Below are positions 1,694 to 7,210 of a stretch of 64,000 nucleotides of DNA, piece by piece (the stretch's first letter is position 1; the number at the start of each line of letters is the position of its first letter). Under the pieces are notes generated by a model that saw only the letters and a list, made by a program, of their open reading frames with translations, searched no databases and had not been told where the DNA came from. Source of the stretch: Salinimicrobium xinjiangense DSM 19287. GTDB lineage: Bacteria > Bacteroidota > Bacteroidia > Flavobacteriales > Flavobacteriaceae. The stretch covers positions 1-64,000 of the forward strand of contig NZ_AUIG01000002.1 in assembly GCF_000423585.1 (NCBI RefSeq), read 5' to 3'. The position numbers and the translations under genes were made by a program.

Positions 1694-3013
1694 TTAGTCT
1701 ATAGAAGATGGTAAAATCCAGTCATGATGCCGAAAATGATCCCATTCTTCGTCTGCAAGATTTACCTTTGAATCTATAAAATTCTGAAATGGCCTGCCGT
1801 TGACACTTACTTTACTGTCCACATAAATCTCTACTTCTTTACCATCCTGCTCAAATTCTTCTTCCAACCGCTGGGCGAATTGCCAGATCATATCGGGTTT
1901 GGAAGGAAGCGCCCGCATTTGTTTAGGCGAAAGATATTTGCTGTTCTGAATGAAAATGGTATCCTGCGGCCTTTCCCTGTCTACCACCTTATACTGGATT
2001 AGCCCTGATTTTGATCTTAACATCATACGCCAGCTTAGCCTGTGGCCTTCTTCTGTCCACAATACATCATCCTGAATGAACCAGTGTCTTACGGGAAGAG
2101 TGATCTGCACCAGGAGCCATATACCAAGAAAACCAATAATTAAATTGCGGTAAGGCGGGACTTTTATCTCACCTGCTGAATAATATGGTTTCTTCCAAAG
2201 AAAATATTGGTTGATCTTTTTCGAAGAAAAGAAGAATAAAGTGAAAGCCAGGGCCAGGTAAGGAAATATCCCAATATGGAAAATGGCACTATTAAAAAGG
2301 TGAAAAAATACAGCTGCAAAAAAGGCAAAAAGACGGGTCCTTTTCCACAACAGTAAAGGGATGATCAACAGGTCAAAAAGAAAACCAAACCAGGCGATAC
2401 TAAGGTGCACCCAGTCCTGCTGAAGAAGATCACCCACCAGCCAGTATTGTTCTCGTGCCTTCATTAGAATAGCAGGCAATGTTCCATCCAGCCAGTCTGG
2501 GTAAAGCTTGGCTATGGCAGCATAGGTATAGAGGATCCATAACTGAAGTACGATCAACAGCCAGATCCAGCGGGGCATACTTATTTCCTTTATTTGGGGA
2601 TTTCTCCAGGCGTCTACCGAAGCATATTTGTGCGCGGGAAACAGAACCATGAGAAAACAGAGCAGCATTAACAGGTAATAATGGTTGTTGTAGGATGATT
2701 TTTGCATCAGGTAAACCGCTGCCCACATGATCGCATACATGAAAATGCTGAACCTGTATTTGAACCCAAGCATAACAAAGAGTCCGAACACTCCCATTAC
2801 TCCGTAGTACCAGAGCATTCCGTTTCCGGGCAATGGCTGCAGAAATTCAAAACCAATAAAGCTAAAGGTGAATTGCGGTTCCATGAACGCACGGCGAATC
2901 CAACCGGTAAAAATAGCTCCGAAAGCTTCCGCAGCCAGAAGAATTCCGAAAATGATCCGGAAAACTATGAGTGCGGAATTATCAATCCTTCGAAAAAGCC
3001 ATTTATTCAGCAT
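1694..3013 (-). CDS. HTTM (vitamin K-dependent gamma-carboxylase-like) membrane protein
   Basis: The 439-residue protein has a polytopic N-terminal half of several hydrophobic helices and a soluble C-terminal part. The opening pattern (RIDNSALIVFRIIFGILLAAE), the G-F-x-F-LQPLPGNGMLWYYGVMG segment and the 'KSSYNNHYYLLMLLCFLM' segment are typical of HTTM proteins, which resemble vertebrate vitamin K-dependent gamma-glutamyl carboxylase. No substrate is known for the bacterial members, and a carboxylase activity should not be assumed. Its start overlaps the 3' end of ribF by 11 bp, so the two are probably co-transcribed and translationally coupled. The pairing with a flavin-synthesis gene may be accidental. 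Confidence 0.85.
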   Translation of the reverse strand: MLNKWLFRRIDNSALIVFRIIFGILLAAEAFGAIFTGWIRRAFMEPQFTFSFIGFEFLQPLPGNGMLWYYGVMGVFGLFVMLGFKYRFSIFMYAIMWAAVYLMQKSSYNNHYYLLMLLCFLMVLFPAHKYASVDAWRNPQIKEISMPRWIWLLIVLQLWILYTYAAIAKLYPDWLDGTLPAILMKAREQYWLVGDLLQQDWVHLSIAWFGFLFDLLIIPLLLWKRTRLFAFFAAVFFHLFNSAIFHIGIFPYLALAFTLFFFSSKKINQYFLWKKPYYSAGEIKVPPYRNLIIGFLGIWLLVQITLPVRHWFIQDDVLWTEEGHRLSWRMMLRSKSGLIQYKVVDRERPQDTIFIQNSKYLSPKQMRALPSKPDMIWQFAQRLEEEFEQDGKEVEIYVDSKVSVNGRPFQNFIDSKVNLADEEWDHFRHHDWILPSSID

Positions 3014-3941
3014 GATTGTCCCTAATGTATTGCATACTAAAAGCTTTATCCTGTTTCATAGCAGTTTTTAGTTGGTCAATACTATCGAATTTTTTCTCAT
3101 CCCGTATGCGTGTGAGCAGTTCTATAGAAAGATACTTACCATAAAGATCTTTATTCAGATCGAAGAAGTTCGTTTCTATGGTCTTTTCTGTACCGCCTAC
3201 AGTCGGATTAGTTCCAATACTCATCATTCCAAAGACTTCTTCGCCGTCAATAACAGATCTCACCACGTAAACCCCGTTTTTCGGAATAAGCTTATATGTC
3301 TCCTCAATCTTTAAGTTTGCAGTAGGAAATTCAAATTCTTTACCCAGGCCTTTGCCTTTTACAACAGTTCCTGCCAGAGAGAAAGGGTAACTGAGATAGC
3401 GATTCGCTTTTTCAACTCTACCTTCAAGCAGGGCATTTCTAATCTTGGTAGAGCTAACCGCCACATCCTCCACGTCCTGTTTGGAGATCTCCTCTACTTC
3501 AAAATCGTATTCTTTTCCGAAATTCCTGAGGTCGTTGATGTCTGCAGTTCTATTACGGCCAAACCGGTGATCGTACCCGATAATGATCTTTTTAGCCTTT
3601 AATTTATTGACGAGTATATCTCTCACGAATTCCCTGGAAGAAAGTCGGGAAAATTGCTGTGTGAAGGGATGGATTATAAGGTGATCAATCCCACTTTTTT
3701 CAAGAATATTTTTTCTTTCTTCTATGGTATTGATCAGTTTAATATCCGTATCCTTTTGAAGCACCATCCGGGGATGTGGAAAAAAGGTCAATATAGCCGA
3801 TTCAAGATTTCCCGCCCTGGCGGTACTTACCAGCCTCTCAATAATCTTTTGATGGCCTATATGAACTCCGTCAAAAGTTCCAATGGTAACTACTGTATGA
3901 TGACTGCTGCTAAATGCATGCGCTCCTTTATGTTCTTTCAA
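3003..3941 (-). CDS. ribF: Bifunctional riboflavin kinase / FAD synthetase
   Basis: Converts riboflavin to FMN and FMN to FAD. The 312-aa length and two-domain layout are standard. The N-terminal nucleotidyltransferase domain has the GTFDGVHIGHQ motif (residues about 22-32) and the later SSTKIR signature near residue 165. The C-terminal flavokinase domain starts near 185 with the 'GTVVKGKGLGKEFEFPTANL' motif. The gene is the 5' member of a short unit with the HTTM gene (11-bp overlap), and pth lies 8 bp upstream on the same strand, so pth-ribF-HTTM may form one transcript. Confidence 0.96.
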   Translation of the reverse strand: MKEHKGAHAFSSSHHTVVTIGTFDGVHIGHQKIIERLVSTARAGNLESAILTFFPHPRMVLQKDTDIKLINTIEERKNILEKSGIDHLIIHPFTQQFSRLSSREFVRDILVNKLKAKKIIIGYDHRFGRNRTADINDLRNFGKEYDFEVEEISKQDVEDVAVSSTKIRNALLEGRVEKANRYLSYPFSLAGTVVKGKGLGKEFEFPTANLKIEETYKLIPKNGVYVVRSVIDGEEVFGMMSIGTNPTVGGTEKTIETNFFDLNKDLYGKYLSIELLTRIRDEKKFDSIDQLKTAMKQDKAFSMQYIRDNHAE

Positions 3942-6600: not shown

Positions 6601-6640
6601 AAAAAGAAAAGAGCCTCAAAAATCAAATTTCTGAGGCTCT
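6601..6640 (-). terminator. Terminator downstream of tRNA-Leu
   Basis: Inverted repeat AGAGCCTCA / TGAGGCTCT (6610-6640) with a 13-nt A/T-rich loop. On the minus strand the distal arm runs into CTCTTTTCTTTTTG, a T-rich tail. It begins 2 nt past the encoded tRNA 3' end, so it is placed to end the tRNA transcript before prs. Confidence 0.8.
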
Positions 6641-6642
6641 TG

Positions 6643-6724
6643 TACCTTGGGCGGGAATCGAACCCGCACGTCCGAAGACACTGGATTTTGAATCCAGCGC
6701 GTCTACCAGTTCCGCCACCAAGGC
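6643..6724 (-). tRNA. tRNA-Leu(CAA)
   Basis: An 82-nt tRNA on the minus strand. The acceptor arms GCCTTGG / CCAAGGT (closing G-U pair) with discriminator A73 flank a D-arm with GGTAGA, an anticodon stem CTGGA/TCCAG with a TTCAAAA loop (anticodon CAA, reading UUG), a long class II variable arm (GTC-TTCG-GAC) and the T-loop GGTTCGATTCC. CCA is not encoded; the next bases are CA. The gene is intact. Only 4 nt separate its 5' end from the restored stop codon of the GIY-YIG reading frame. Confidence 0.96.
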
Positions 6725-6769
6725 ATAATCATTTCAATTTGTTCCGAACTTCTTTTAATTTTTCTTTAC

Positions 6770-6976
6770 CTATCCCCATTTCCAATATTTTTCTCTTCCT
6801 CTTGCTTCCAATCGAGAAGTGTAAATCTCGGAATAAATTAACTGAAAAGGTCTGTAATTTCTGGTGGTTTTCTCCTTTCCAGAATTGTGCTGTTGCATCC
6901 TCCTTTCCAGATCTGAGGTCAAACCTACATAAATGTAGTTCTTTTCAATGCCAGATAAAGCATAAACGTAAAACAT
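6770..6976 (-). CDS. GIY-YIG nuclease family protein, frameshifted near its C-terminus
   Basis: From the ATG at 6976 the frame gives MFYVYALSGIEKNYIYVGLT followed by 'DLERRMQQHN' and 'EARGREKYWKWG', then stops at 6770 (68 aa). The VYA...YVG elements and the later Arg and Glu-containing helix are those of stand-alone GIY-YIG proteins of about 80-100 aa (UPF0213-like; predicted DNA endonucleases). The family's usual tail, GIGKEKLKEVRNKLK, is present but in another frame and ends with TGA at 6729-6731. Losing one base near the GGGG run at about 6775-6779 explains this, and the repaired protein would have 82 aa. The open frame upstream to 7075 only translates a tRNA fragment and palindromes and is not part of the gene. 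It could be a pseudogene or a sequencing error. Confidence 0.75.
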   Translation of the reverse strand: MFYVYALSGIEKNYIYVGLTSDLERRMQQHNSGKEKTTRNYRPFQLIYSEIYTSRLEARGREKYWKWG

Positions 6977-6999
6977 ACAAAGAACTTTGCTCCAGCGCG

Positions 7000-7019
7000 C
7001 CTGCCTGCCGGCAGGCAGG
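7000..7019. repeat. 20-bp perfect palindrome, copy 1
   Basis: CCTGCCTGCCGGCAGGCAGG is its own reverse complement. It sits just before the 3' strand of the D-stem of the tRNA-Leu fragment. Read through, it encodes peptides such as LPAGRQAG, a string I have seen in many Bacteroidota database proteins; that is recollection, not a search. It looks like a small dispersed palindromic element. Confidence 0.85.
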
Positions 7020-7033
7020 TCTACCAATTCCGC

Positions 7034-7053
7034 CCTGCCTGCCGGCAGGCAGG
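7034..7053. repeat. 20-bp perfect palindrome, copy 2
   Basis: Identical to copy 1 and separated from it by 14 nt. It interrupts the tRNA fragment at the 5' base of the D-stem (between tRNA positions 9 and 10, with a one-base ambiguity because the flanks share G/C). Confidence 0.85.
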
Positions 7054-7210
7054 CACCAAGGCGAGTGGAGGGCAAAAGTAATAATTTTTTCTTTTCACCT
7101 ATAAAATTTCAAGGAATTAATTCTATGTCGGCAGGAACCACTTCATTTTCTTATCCCTTTGCGCATCTTCGCAAGAAATTGTAAATTTCGCGGCATATCA
7201 CACGCTCCCT

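Follow-up and report, generated by a model that had tools for sequence, protein, structure and literature searches.

Small GIY-YIG nuclease genes lie beside broken copies of tRNA-Leu genes on bacterial chromosomes, and we consider it fairly probable that this arrangement is the work of a free-standing, homing-like element that resides in tRNA genes, where an intact and a broken copy of the target are left behind. The copy from which we started lies in a stretch of 64,000 nucleotides from Salinimicrobium xinjiangense DSM 19287 (the window) and would be a decayed one. Homing-like behavior is suggested because the nuclease keeps to a single kind of gene, occurs at some matching sites and is missing from others, can lie on either side of the tRNA gene, and leaves this target whole beside a broken copy. 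The same intact tRNA counts against this reading, since a whole tRNA gene next to the nuclease would be expected to serve as a target as well.

A broken and an intact tRNA-Leu gene around one nuclease frame

A sequence-only reading of the window had described a tRNA-Leu 5' half, a GIY-YIG gene, an intact tRNA-Leu(CAA) and a terminator on the minus strand. After re-reading the coordinates we found this arrangement to be real, with a promoter-like box, the split 5' part of a tRNA-Leu, the GIY-YIG frame, the intact tRNA-Leu(CAA) and a terminator-like hairpin following each other in this order (Table 1). TAnnTTTG is a promoter motif of Bacteroidota, and the same box also precedes the intact tRNA in two relatives with empty sites (L133 and L134). 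The remnant comprises 32 nucleotides. Counted by eye, 31 of them match the intact tRNA once two inserts are set aside, as reported before. The remnant does not end in the anticodon loop, as had been claimed, but immediately before it, with the final base on the 5' side of the anticodon stem. The two inserts proved to be the main clue: they are copies of the same palindrome, identical in sequence, which the earlier reading had missed. Copy 2 follows base 23, where inserts are most often found across the family. We detected the palindrome core two times in the window and in none of 100 shuffles; the 3.76-Mb genome as a whole holds eight occurrences, including the two at this locus.

Table 1. Coordinates of the tRNA-Leu/GIY-YIG array in the window and of related junctions and copies elsewhere
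Feature	Position	Strand	Basis
TACTTTTG, promoter-like box of the tRNA gene, now 5' of the remnant	7073..7080	-	sequence reading
tRNA-Leu remnant, bases 1-9	7054..7062	-	sequence reading
Palindrome copy 1, 20 bp, perfect; at the base of the D-stem (our reading of the tRNA fold)	7034..7053	-	
tRNA-Leu remnant, bases 10-23	7020..7033	-	sequence reading
Palindrome copy 2, 20 bp, perfect; after base 23, at the D-loop/D-stem border (our reading)	7000..7019	-	
tRNA-Leu remnant, bases 24-32	6991..6999	-	sequence reading
GIY-YIG nuclease frame, 68 aa + stop	6770..6976	-	PF01541, E 1.2e-18
Intact tRNA-Leu(CAA)	6642..6724	-	tRNA calls
Terminator-like hairpin and T-run of the tRNA	6601..6640	-	read by eye
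Epimerase-subfamily copy in the window genome (L005)	C1:210647		
Junctions of the G011 island (L144 and L141)	G011:C3:49128 and 105245		

The nuclease of the window is shortened by a frameshift near its end. Its relatives have a frame of 82 amino acids, and a reading that matches them would extend to about position 6729. The distance of 4 nt between nuclease frame and intact tRNA that had been given before is correct for another frame, but the open frame stops 45 bases short of the tRNA. Although it retains the motif residues, the window copy has probably lost its activity through this frameshift; relatives carry intact copies. Two other explanations for the window insert were ruled out. An integrase-driven island does not fit an insert of 338 bp with one GIY-YIG frame and no integrase. 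A group I intron in the tRNA-Leu gene was dismissed as well: at gathering threshold Rfam finds only the tRNA in the window. An intein is unlikely, as the frame codes for the nuclease domain alone.

The family to which this protein belongs was examined through relatives collected from a one-genome-per-species collection with an alignment of nine of them as query. This search gave at least 553 confirmed places, of which the best 80 were kept with their flanks; selected by similarity, this set is biased toward the subfamily of the window. In 62 aligned rows Y5, Y16, G18, R26 and H30 are invariant, and E50 is found in at least 90% of them. We take these six residues to be the active site of a GIY-YIG nuclease. 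The frame measures 66 to 100 amino acids in 76 of these best 80 of at least 553 loci. The structure predicted for an 82-residue member (L052, 62 rows) is a single compact domain with a mean pLDDT of 95.7, and the only other Pfam match above cut-off, T5orf172, covers the same residues as PF01541. Neither the Pfam search nor this model shows a DNA-binding domain in addition to the catalytic one, a point against homing-like mobility. By sequence as well as by fold, the closest chains of known structure belong to UPF0213 proteins, Slx1 and I-TevI, with only a UPF0213 chain passing an E value of 0.001 in the fold comparison. In PHROGs, a family of GIY-YIG homing endonucleases was hit weakly (E 1.5e-4), and NCBIfam yielded nothing better than a match far below its cut-off. 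The family is chromosomal and hardly found on phages and plasmids. Among 50,697 phage records there are 11 matches and among 72,556 plasmid records there is 1, all with less than 60% identity and none over more than 80% of the length.

The association of these nucleases with tRNA genes is systematic. Among the best 80 of at least 553 loci, ARAGORN calls a tRNA within 1.5 kb in 75 and within 150 bp in 73. The 75 loci with a called tRNA comprise 73 Leu and 2 Ser, and in all 75 the tRNA lies on the strand of the nuclease; of 73 tRNAs in this set, 50 are downstream and 23 upstream. The five loci without a called tRNA (L052, L079, L088, L099 and L126) contain tRNA pieces recognizable by eye. Two architectures recur. 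In the 5' form, that of the window, a 5' remnant broken by a palindrome is followed by the nuclease gene and, close behind, by an intact tRNA. In the mirror image, the 3' form, an intact tRNA comes first, often separated by a terminator from the nuclease, and a palindrome-broken 3' remnant comes last. The records that hold the 80 loci are named as Bacteroidota, several Patescibacteria, Nitrospirae, Omnitrophota, Balneola and Stygiobacter; many of these are metagenome bins, and the apparent spread across phyla may include misbinned contigs. A protein tree built by a quick method from 81 rows and 82 columns has poor resolution. Form requires 14 changes on this tree versus about 22 in shuffles, with none of 500 shuffles as low, so the two forms cluster in clades, yet are not fixed. 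For this count the form of the five loci without a called tRNA was assigned by eye, and L091 and L100, with a tRNA on both sides, were left out. At these two loci, the nuclease gene is flanked by intact tRNA-Leu genes of two kinds (GAG and CAG), which may represent a stage before decay.

Empty sites, filled sites and the origin of the two tRNA copies

All 12 genomes from the genus of the window, two of which (G001 and G009) are assembled to only about 75% completeness, contain a match to tRNA-Leu(CAA); in G009 the match consists of remnants only, as the contig breaks off ahead of any intact tRNA. A nuclease gene lies beside it in four: the window genome, G003 and G009 carry the 5' form and G007 the 3' form, and both G009 and G007 contain tandem nuclease arrangements. 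The eight other genomes have no nuclease gene in the fetched stretch of about 3 kb; seven of these sites are plain empty and one holds another island. The same tRNA-Leu locus was found without the insert within the genus, in a check that the sequence-only reading had proposed. An upstream HupE-type gene is common to the window, G007, G009, G006, G008 and G011. Because this gene is shared, we can assign both mirror forms, empty sites and the island to one locus. Compared with G008 and G006, the window contains 338 extra bp between the tRNA leader and the tRNA. Filled G003 and empty G010 are 91-93% identical on the left flank up to the palindrome and 86% on the right flank, which in G003 lies on another contig, apparently because an island of the G011 kind follows. 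At another tRNA-Leu locus, next to prs, the site is empty in 29 and filled in 1 of the best 30 of 330 matching genomes of the family, judged again over about 3 kb.

The locus also hosts larger DNA. In G011, an insertion of roughly 56 kb interrupts this tRNA-Leu within its anticodon arm and supplies a complete tRNA-Leu of its own. Similar junctions occur on two contigs of G003 (L024 and L142), next to the nuclease element.

The earlier proposal of a small element that inserted into a tRNA gene is thus supported by empty sites and by the family-wide linkage of GIY-YIG genes to tRNA fragments, but not in its choice of junction. As the comparison of G003 with G010 shows, the junction of empty sites is not at the anticodon loop; the limits of the insert are the first base of the tRNA and/or the position of the palindrome in the D-arm. 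A static duplication with an unrelated small gene caught between the copies is extremely improbable. Nothing beyond the window itself speaks for this idea, and it is contradicted by the empty sites, the mirror form and the family-wide linkage. Since gene-free tRNA-Leu(CAA) loci exist in the genus and the nuclease is systematically linked to tRNA fragments, the duplication is not static.

How might such an element work? In the reading that we favor, it would consist of a gene for a bare GIY-YIG nuclease with some 82 residues, a stretch of the target tRNA gene that contains a palindromic hairpin, and a duplicated part of the tRNA through which an intact copy is retained alongside. The nuclease would break a tRNA-Leu gene that lacks the element. 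Repair would then copy the element from a homologous donor, with tRNA sequence serving as homology, so that one tRNA copy may come along with the element. The end state would be an intact tRNA gene and a broken copy beside the nuclease, the latter on the 5' side as in the window or on the 3' side as in the mirror form. We surmise that the hairpin in the remnant could keep the broken copy from being cut again or from recombining with the intact one.

Comparison of the two tRNA copies bears on where the duplication comes from. In 41 of the 50 5'-form loci, the first eight bases of the remnant match the adjacent intact tRNA at seven or eight positions, and two more loci (L114 and L115) agree by eye if the called start is shifted by one. 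This is the pattern expected of a local duplication. The copies clearly differ in five loci (L053, L076, L105, L117 and L128), in L053 owing to an island. For L086 and L120, inspection by eye revealed no remnant. Within the genus, remnant and leader hardly differ between G009 and the window, which suggests that the remnant moves together with the element. At the single base that differs between the two copies of the window, it is the intact copy and not the remnant that matches G011, the closest genome by prs. L076 at first looks like a native remnant beside a foreign intact tRNA, as empty relatives at this locus carry the acceptor type of the remnant. A third tRNA-Leu copy, located downstream at 2751-3100 of this locus, is interrupted by palindromes at both D-arm and T-loop and has the other acceptor type, so L076 is better described as a mosaic of more than one event. 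A clean case of a foreign replacement tRNA was not found among the 50 5'-form loci.

These data leave some room for local amplification as the chief origin of the duplicated copies. The nuclease would have arrived once, and its breaks would have produced tandem units of tRNA and nuclease, after which spare tRNAs decayed and gained palindromes. Tandem nuclease copies (L023/L052, L026, L027, L030, L079, L105 and L125), the agreement of remnant and local tRNA in the 5'-form loci, and the intact tRNA on both sides of L091 and L100 point in this direction. There is also a precedent in phage T6, where, according to the accessible part of the source, the GIY-YIG enzyme SegB cuts tRNA genes and multiplies a unit of tRNA and nuclease in tandem (PMC13096335). 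This precedent speaks for the homing-like reading as well. However, a second nuclease copy lies within 1 kb in only 4 of the best 80 of at least 553 loci, and the coexistence of empty sites, filled sites and both mirror forms in one genus implies repeated arrival. Moreover, chance decay would not place the same palindrome at the same position of a tRNA. We therefore hold this course of events to be rather unlikely. The probabilities that we attach to it, to homing-like mobility and to the hairpin as a partner of the enzyme, which is discussed below, overlap.

The hairpin in the remnant and the wider nuclease family

The palindrome is a regular companion of the nuclease gene. Within a span of about 370 bases around the gene, it occurs with up to four mismatches in 66 of 80 loci versus 4 of 661 control stretches from the same loci, and with up to six mismatches in 72 of 80 versus 7 of 661. 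By eye, seven of the eight loci that fail the wider threshold (L063, L066, L073, L089, L095, L102 and L116) contain other hairpin-like or related inserts; no such insert was recognized around the nuclease gene of the eighth, L104. Some remnants contain two or three palindromes (L070). The position of inserts of at least 12 bases was scored in 70 remnants including the window, five of them by eye. Thirty-eight inserts follow base 23, 17 are at the T-loop border, 8 follow base 14 or so, 6 fall in the anticodon arm and 1 follows base 8; L061 and L086 (base-14 class) and L081 (T class) are doubtful alignments. The stem pair 5-12 is C-G in 41, T-A in 30 and T-G in 1 of 72 copies. Since this pair keeps pairing through paired changes, the hairpin is maintained as such.

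One way to account for this conservation is selection at the RNA level, with the hairpin preventing the broken tRNA from competing with the intact one in folding or processing. In the scored loci, the hairpin is indeed inside the tRNA remnant and often, by our reading, at stem-loop borders. On the other hand, the palindrome also occurs outside tRNA remnants, and its near-constant sequence under record names of several phyla exceeds what a steric block would need. We regard an RNA-level function as improbable.

Another possibility is that palindrome and nuclease form one system. In RAYT/REP systems, a small enzyme gene lies among dispersed short palindromes, the RAYT enzyme being a Y1 transposase. 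The nuclease could be the GIY-YIG counterpart: it would recognize or move the hairpin, and dispersed palindromes would be non-autonomous copies. We consider this reading tentatively, as a possibility that falls well short of likely. A degenerate form of the window palindrome was detected in 18 of 99 genomes and never in a reversed control. Seventeen of these 18 genomes contain a GIY-YIG match compared with 37 of the 81 genomes without the palindrome (Fisher p 1.3e-4), which favors one system. Yet matches to Y1 transposases, too, are more frequent in genomes with the palindrome (12 of 18 versus 30 of 81, p 0.03), so that a Y1 enzyme could have a role at palindromes elsewhere; both associations are only indicative, as the species are related and the genomes not independent. 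The paired changes in the stem and the presence of structure-specific Slx1 among the nearest solved relatives are further points in favor. The free copies of the palindrome argue the other way. A nuclease gene is nearby in only 4 of 38 further palindrome loci that were fetched (L163, L185, L186 and L199), and the idea that free copies prefer hairpin loops failed (7 of 37, with the nuclease locus L163 excluded, versus 14% of 2000 control sites). At L013/L196 the palindrome was considered as part of a tRNA-Cys remnant; the flank is better read as another dispersed repeat.

We extended the analysis to GIY-YIG genes beyond tRNA-Leu by collecting matches of the window protein in the 99 genomes, including that of the window. 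The resulting 127 loci contain 146 nuclease genes, with one place counted twice (L033/L281); collapsing near-identical copies leaves 140 genes. The two 350-base flanks share a significant repeat in 105 of 146 genes (85 direct, 56 inverted) compared with 1 of 41 genes of the window, which alone served as control (Fisher p 6e-17); after collapsing, the count is 102 of 140. By eye, many of these repeats are palindromes, and many genes of the wider set sit between dispersed palindromes. These flank repeats are in line with one system of nuclease and palindrome. Hairpin strength alone is weak evidence: stem scores of at least 8 were obtained for 21% of upstream and 14% of downstream nuclease flanks (143 each), versus 7% and 7% for 42 window genes and about 1% for shuffles, and flank hairpins that are only two to three times commoner than at real genes count against the one-system reading.

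A tRNA or tmRNA on the same strand lies within 350 bases of 28 of 146 genes (26 of 140 after collapsing), although one of the tRNA neighbors, beside the second L282 gene, is no more than a dubious SeC call. Alignment of 30 tRNA-nuclease pairs revealed hairpins of other sequence at the same place in the D-arm of Arg (L030 and L200) and Asp (L201) remnants, again as one system would predict, and one in the T-loop of a Val remnant (L206). Against this stand remnants in L214, L230, L263, L265, L274, L282 and L285, which align without a hairpin insert. No convincing remnant was seen in L212, L236, L291 and L292 among these pairs. The principle is not restricted to tRNA genes. In a sister subfamily from four genomes (L005, L031, L033 and L034), the start of an epimerase-family gene stops at the same codon and is followed by the same left element end in all four, by the nuclease, and then by a full gene with PF01370 (4 of 4). 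The remnant and the start of the full gene are identical at 26-31 of 40 positions.

Further stand-alone GIY-YIG genes of the window genome lie in repeated, partly palindromic intergenic sequence (L002 on C18, L003 on C1 and L004 on C26). Others follow directly after tRNA-Asn in two copies (L018, C2:89567), tRNA-Gly/tRNA-Leu(TAA) (L019, C36:378) and tRNA-Phe (L008, C23:15); two of these three are broken and one is at a contig end. In three genomes, GIY-YIG genes are found downstream of tmRNA genes (L035, L038 and L286).

On a broader scale, stand-alone GIY-YIG nucleases and palindromic hairpins might constitute one class of bacterial mobile elements. Its subfamilies would either invade conserved genes (tRNA-Leu, -Arg, -Asp, -Val, -Pro, -His and epimerase-family genes) or sit in dispersed palindromes, and the hairpin in the spare copy would be a working part, be it a site lock, a substrate or an anti-recombination block. 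We offer this generalization as speculative and would not yet bet on it; if true, it gives an enzyme to some dispersed palindromes of so far unexplained origin.

Comparison with known systems

UPF0213 GIY-YIG proteins and Slx1 (1zg2, 1ywl, 6seh and 7cq2) have the same fold as the present nuclease, and the UPF0213 proteins are also in the same size class. Slx1 shows that this fold can serve a structure-specific nuclease. We know of no link between either protein and tRNA remnants. In contrast to RAYT/REP, the enzyme gene beside the palindrome codes for a GIY-YIG protein, and the palindrome is located in a tRNA remnant. Our literature search (GIY-YIG with tRNA genes, homing, palindromic repeats and the palindrome itself), with most subscription papers outside its reach and long listings seen in part, returned no description of such an element.

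SegB is a larger protein with its own DNA-binding part, and proteins of the SegB or I-TevI type generally contain a separate DNA-binding region after the catalytic domain. The present nuclease is without such a region, as the 82-residue model is one compact fold, and we do not place it in this type. The resemblance lies in the surroundings: SegB, a free-standing homing endonuclease of T-even phages, is likewise a GIY-YIG nuclease often found beside tRNA genes (PMC13096335). Unlike the present element, which resides on bacterial chromosomes, SegB is phage-borne, and the accessible part of that source describes no palindrome-bearing tRNA remnant (PMC13096335). The Tsy transposon contains an accessory GIY-YIG nuclease, splits a conserved gene and, by the accessible part of its description, moves by tyrosine recombinases (PMC10293859). 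It shares with the present element a GIY-YIG nuclease within DNA that splits a conserved gene; the present insert is without a tyrosine recombinase.

If our reading is right, one enzyme of about 82 residues and pieces of an essential tRNA gene make a very small gene-invading bacterial element, chromosomal and found under record names of Bacteroidota, Patescibacteria, Nitrospirota and Omnitrophota. Such an element would explain tRNA fragments that are usually left unannotated, and the origin of some dispersed palindromes would become testable with one small protein.

The closest parallel in layout comes from fungal mitochondria. In the mobile ORF elements of Allomyces (atp6) and Glomus (atp6, atp9, cox2 and nad3), as far as the accessible part of the source describes them, an endonuclease gene travels with a substitute piece of its target and the native piece is left as a remnant (PMC3630166). 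As in the present element, the nuclease gene has the target on one side and a duplicated portion of it on the other. The fungal elements differ in that they concern the 3' ends of protein genes in organelle DNA and mostly encode LAGLIDADG enzymes; a palindrome in the remnant does not feature in the accessible part of this source either (PMC3630166). The elements described here would extend this trick of bringing a spare piece to bacterial tRNA genes. The hairpin in the remnant, a feature that neither SegB nor the fungal elements show in the accessible parts of these sources, is the most novel part.
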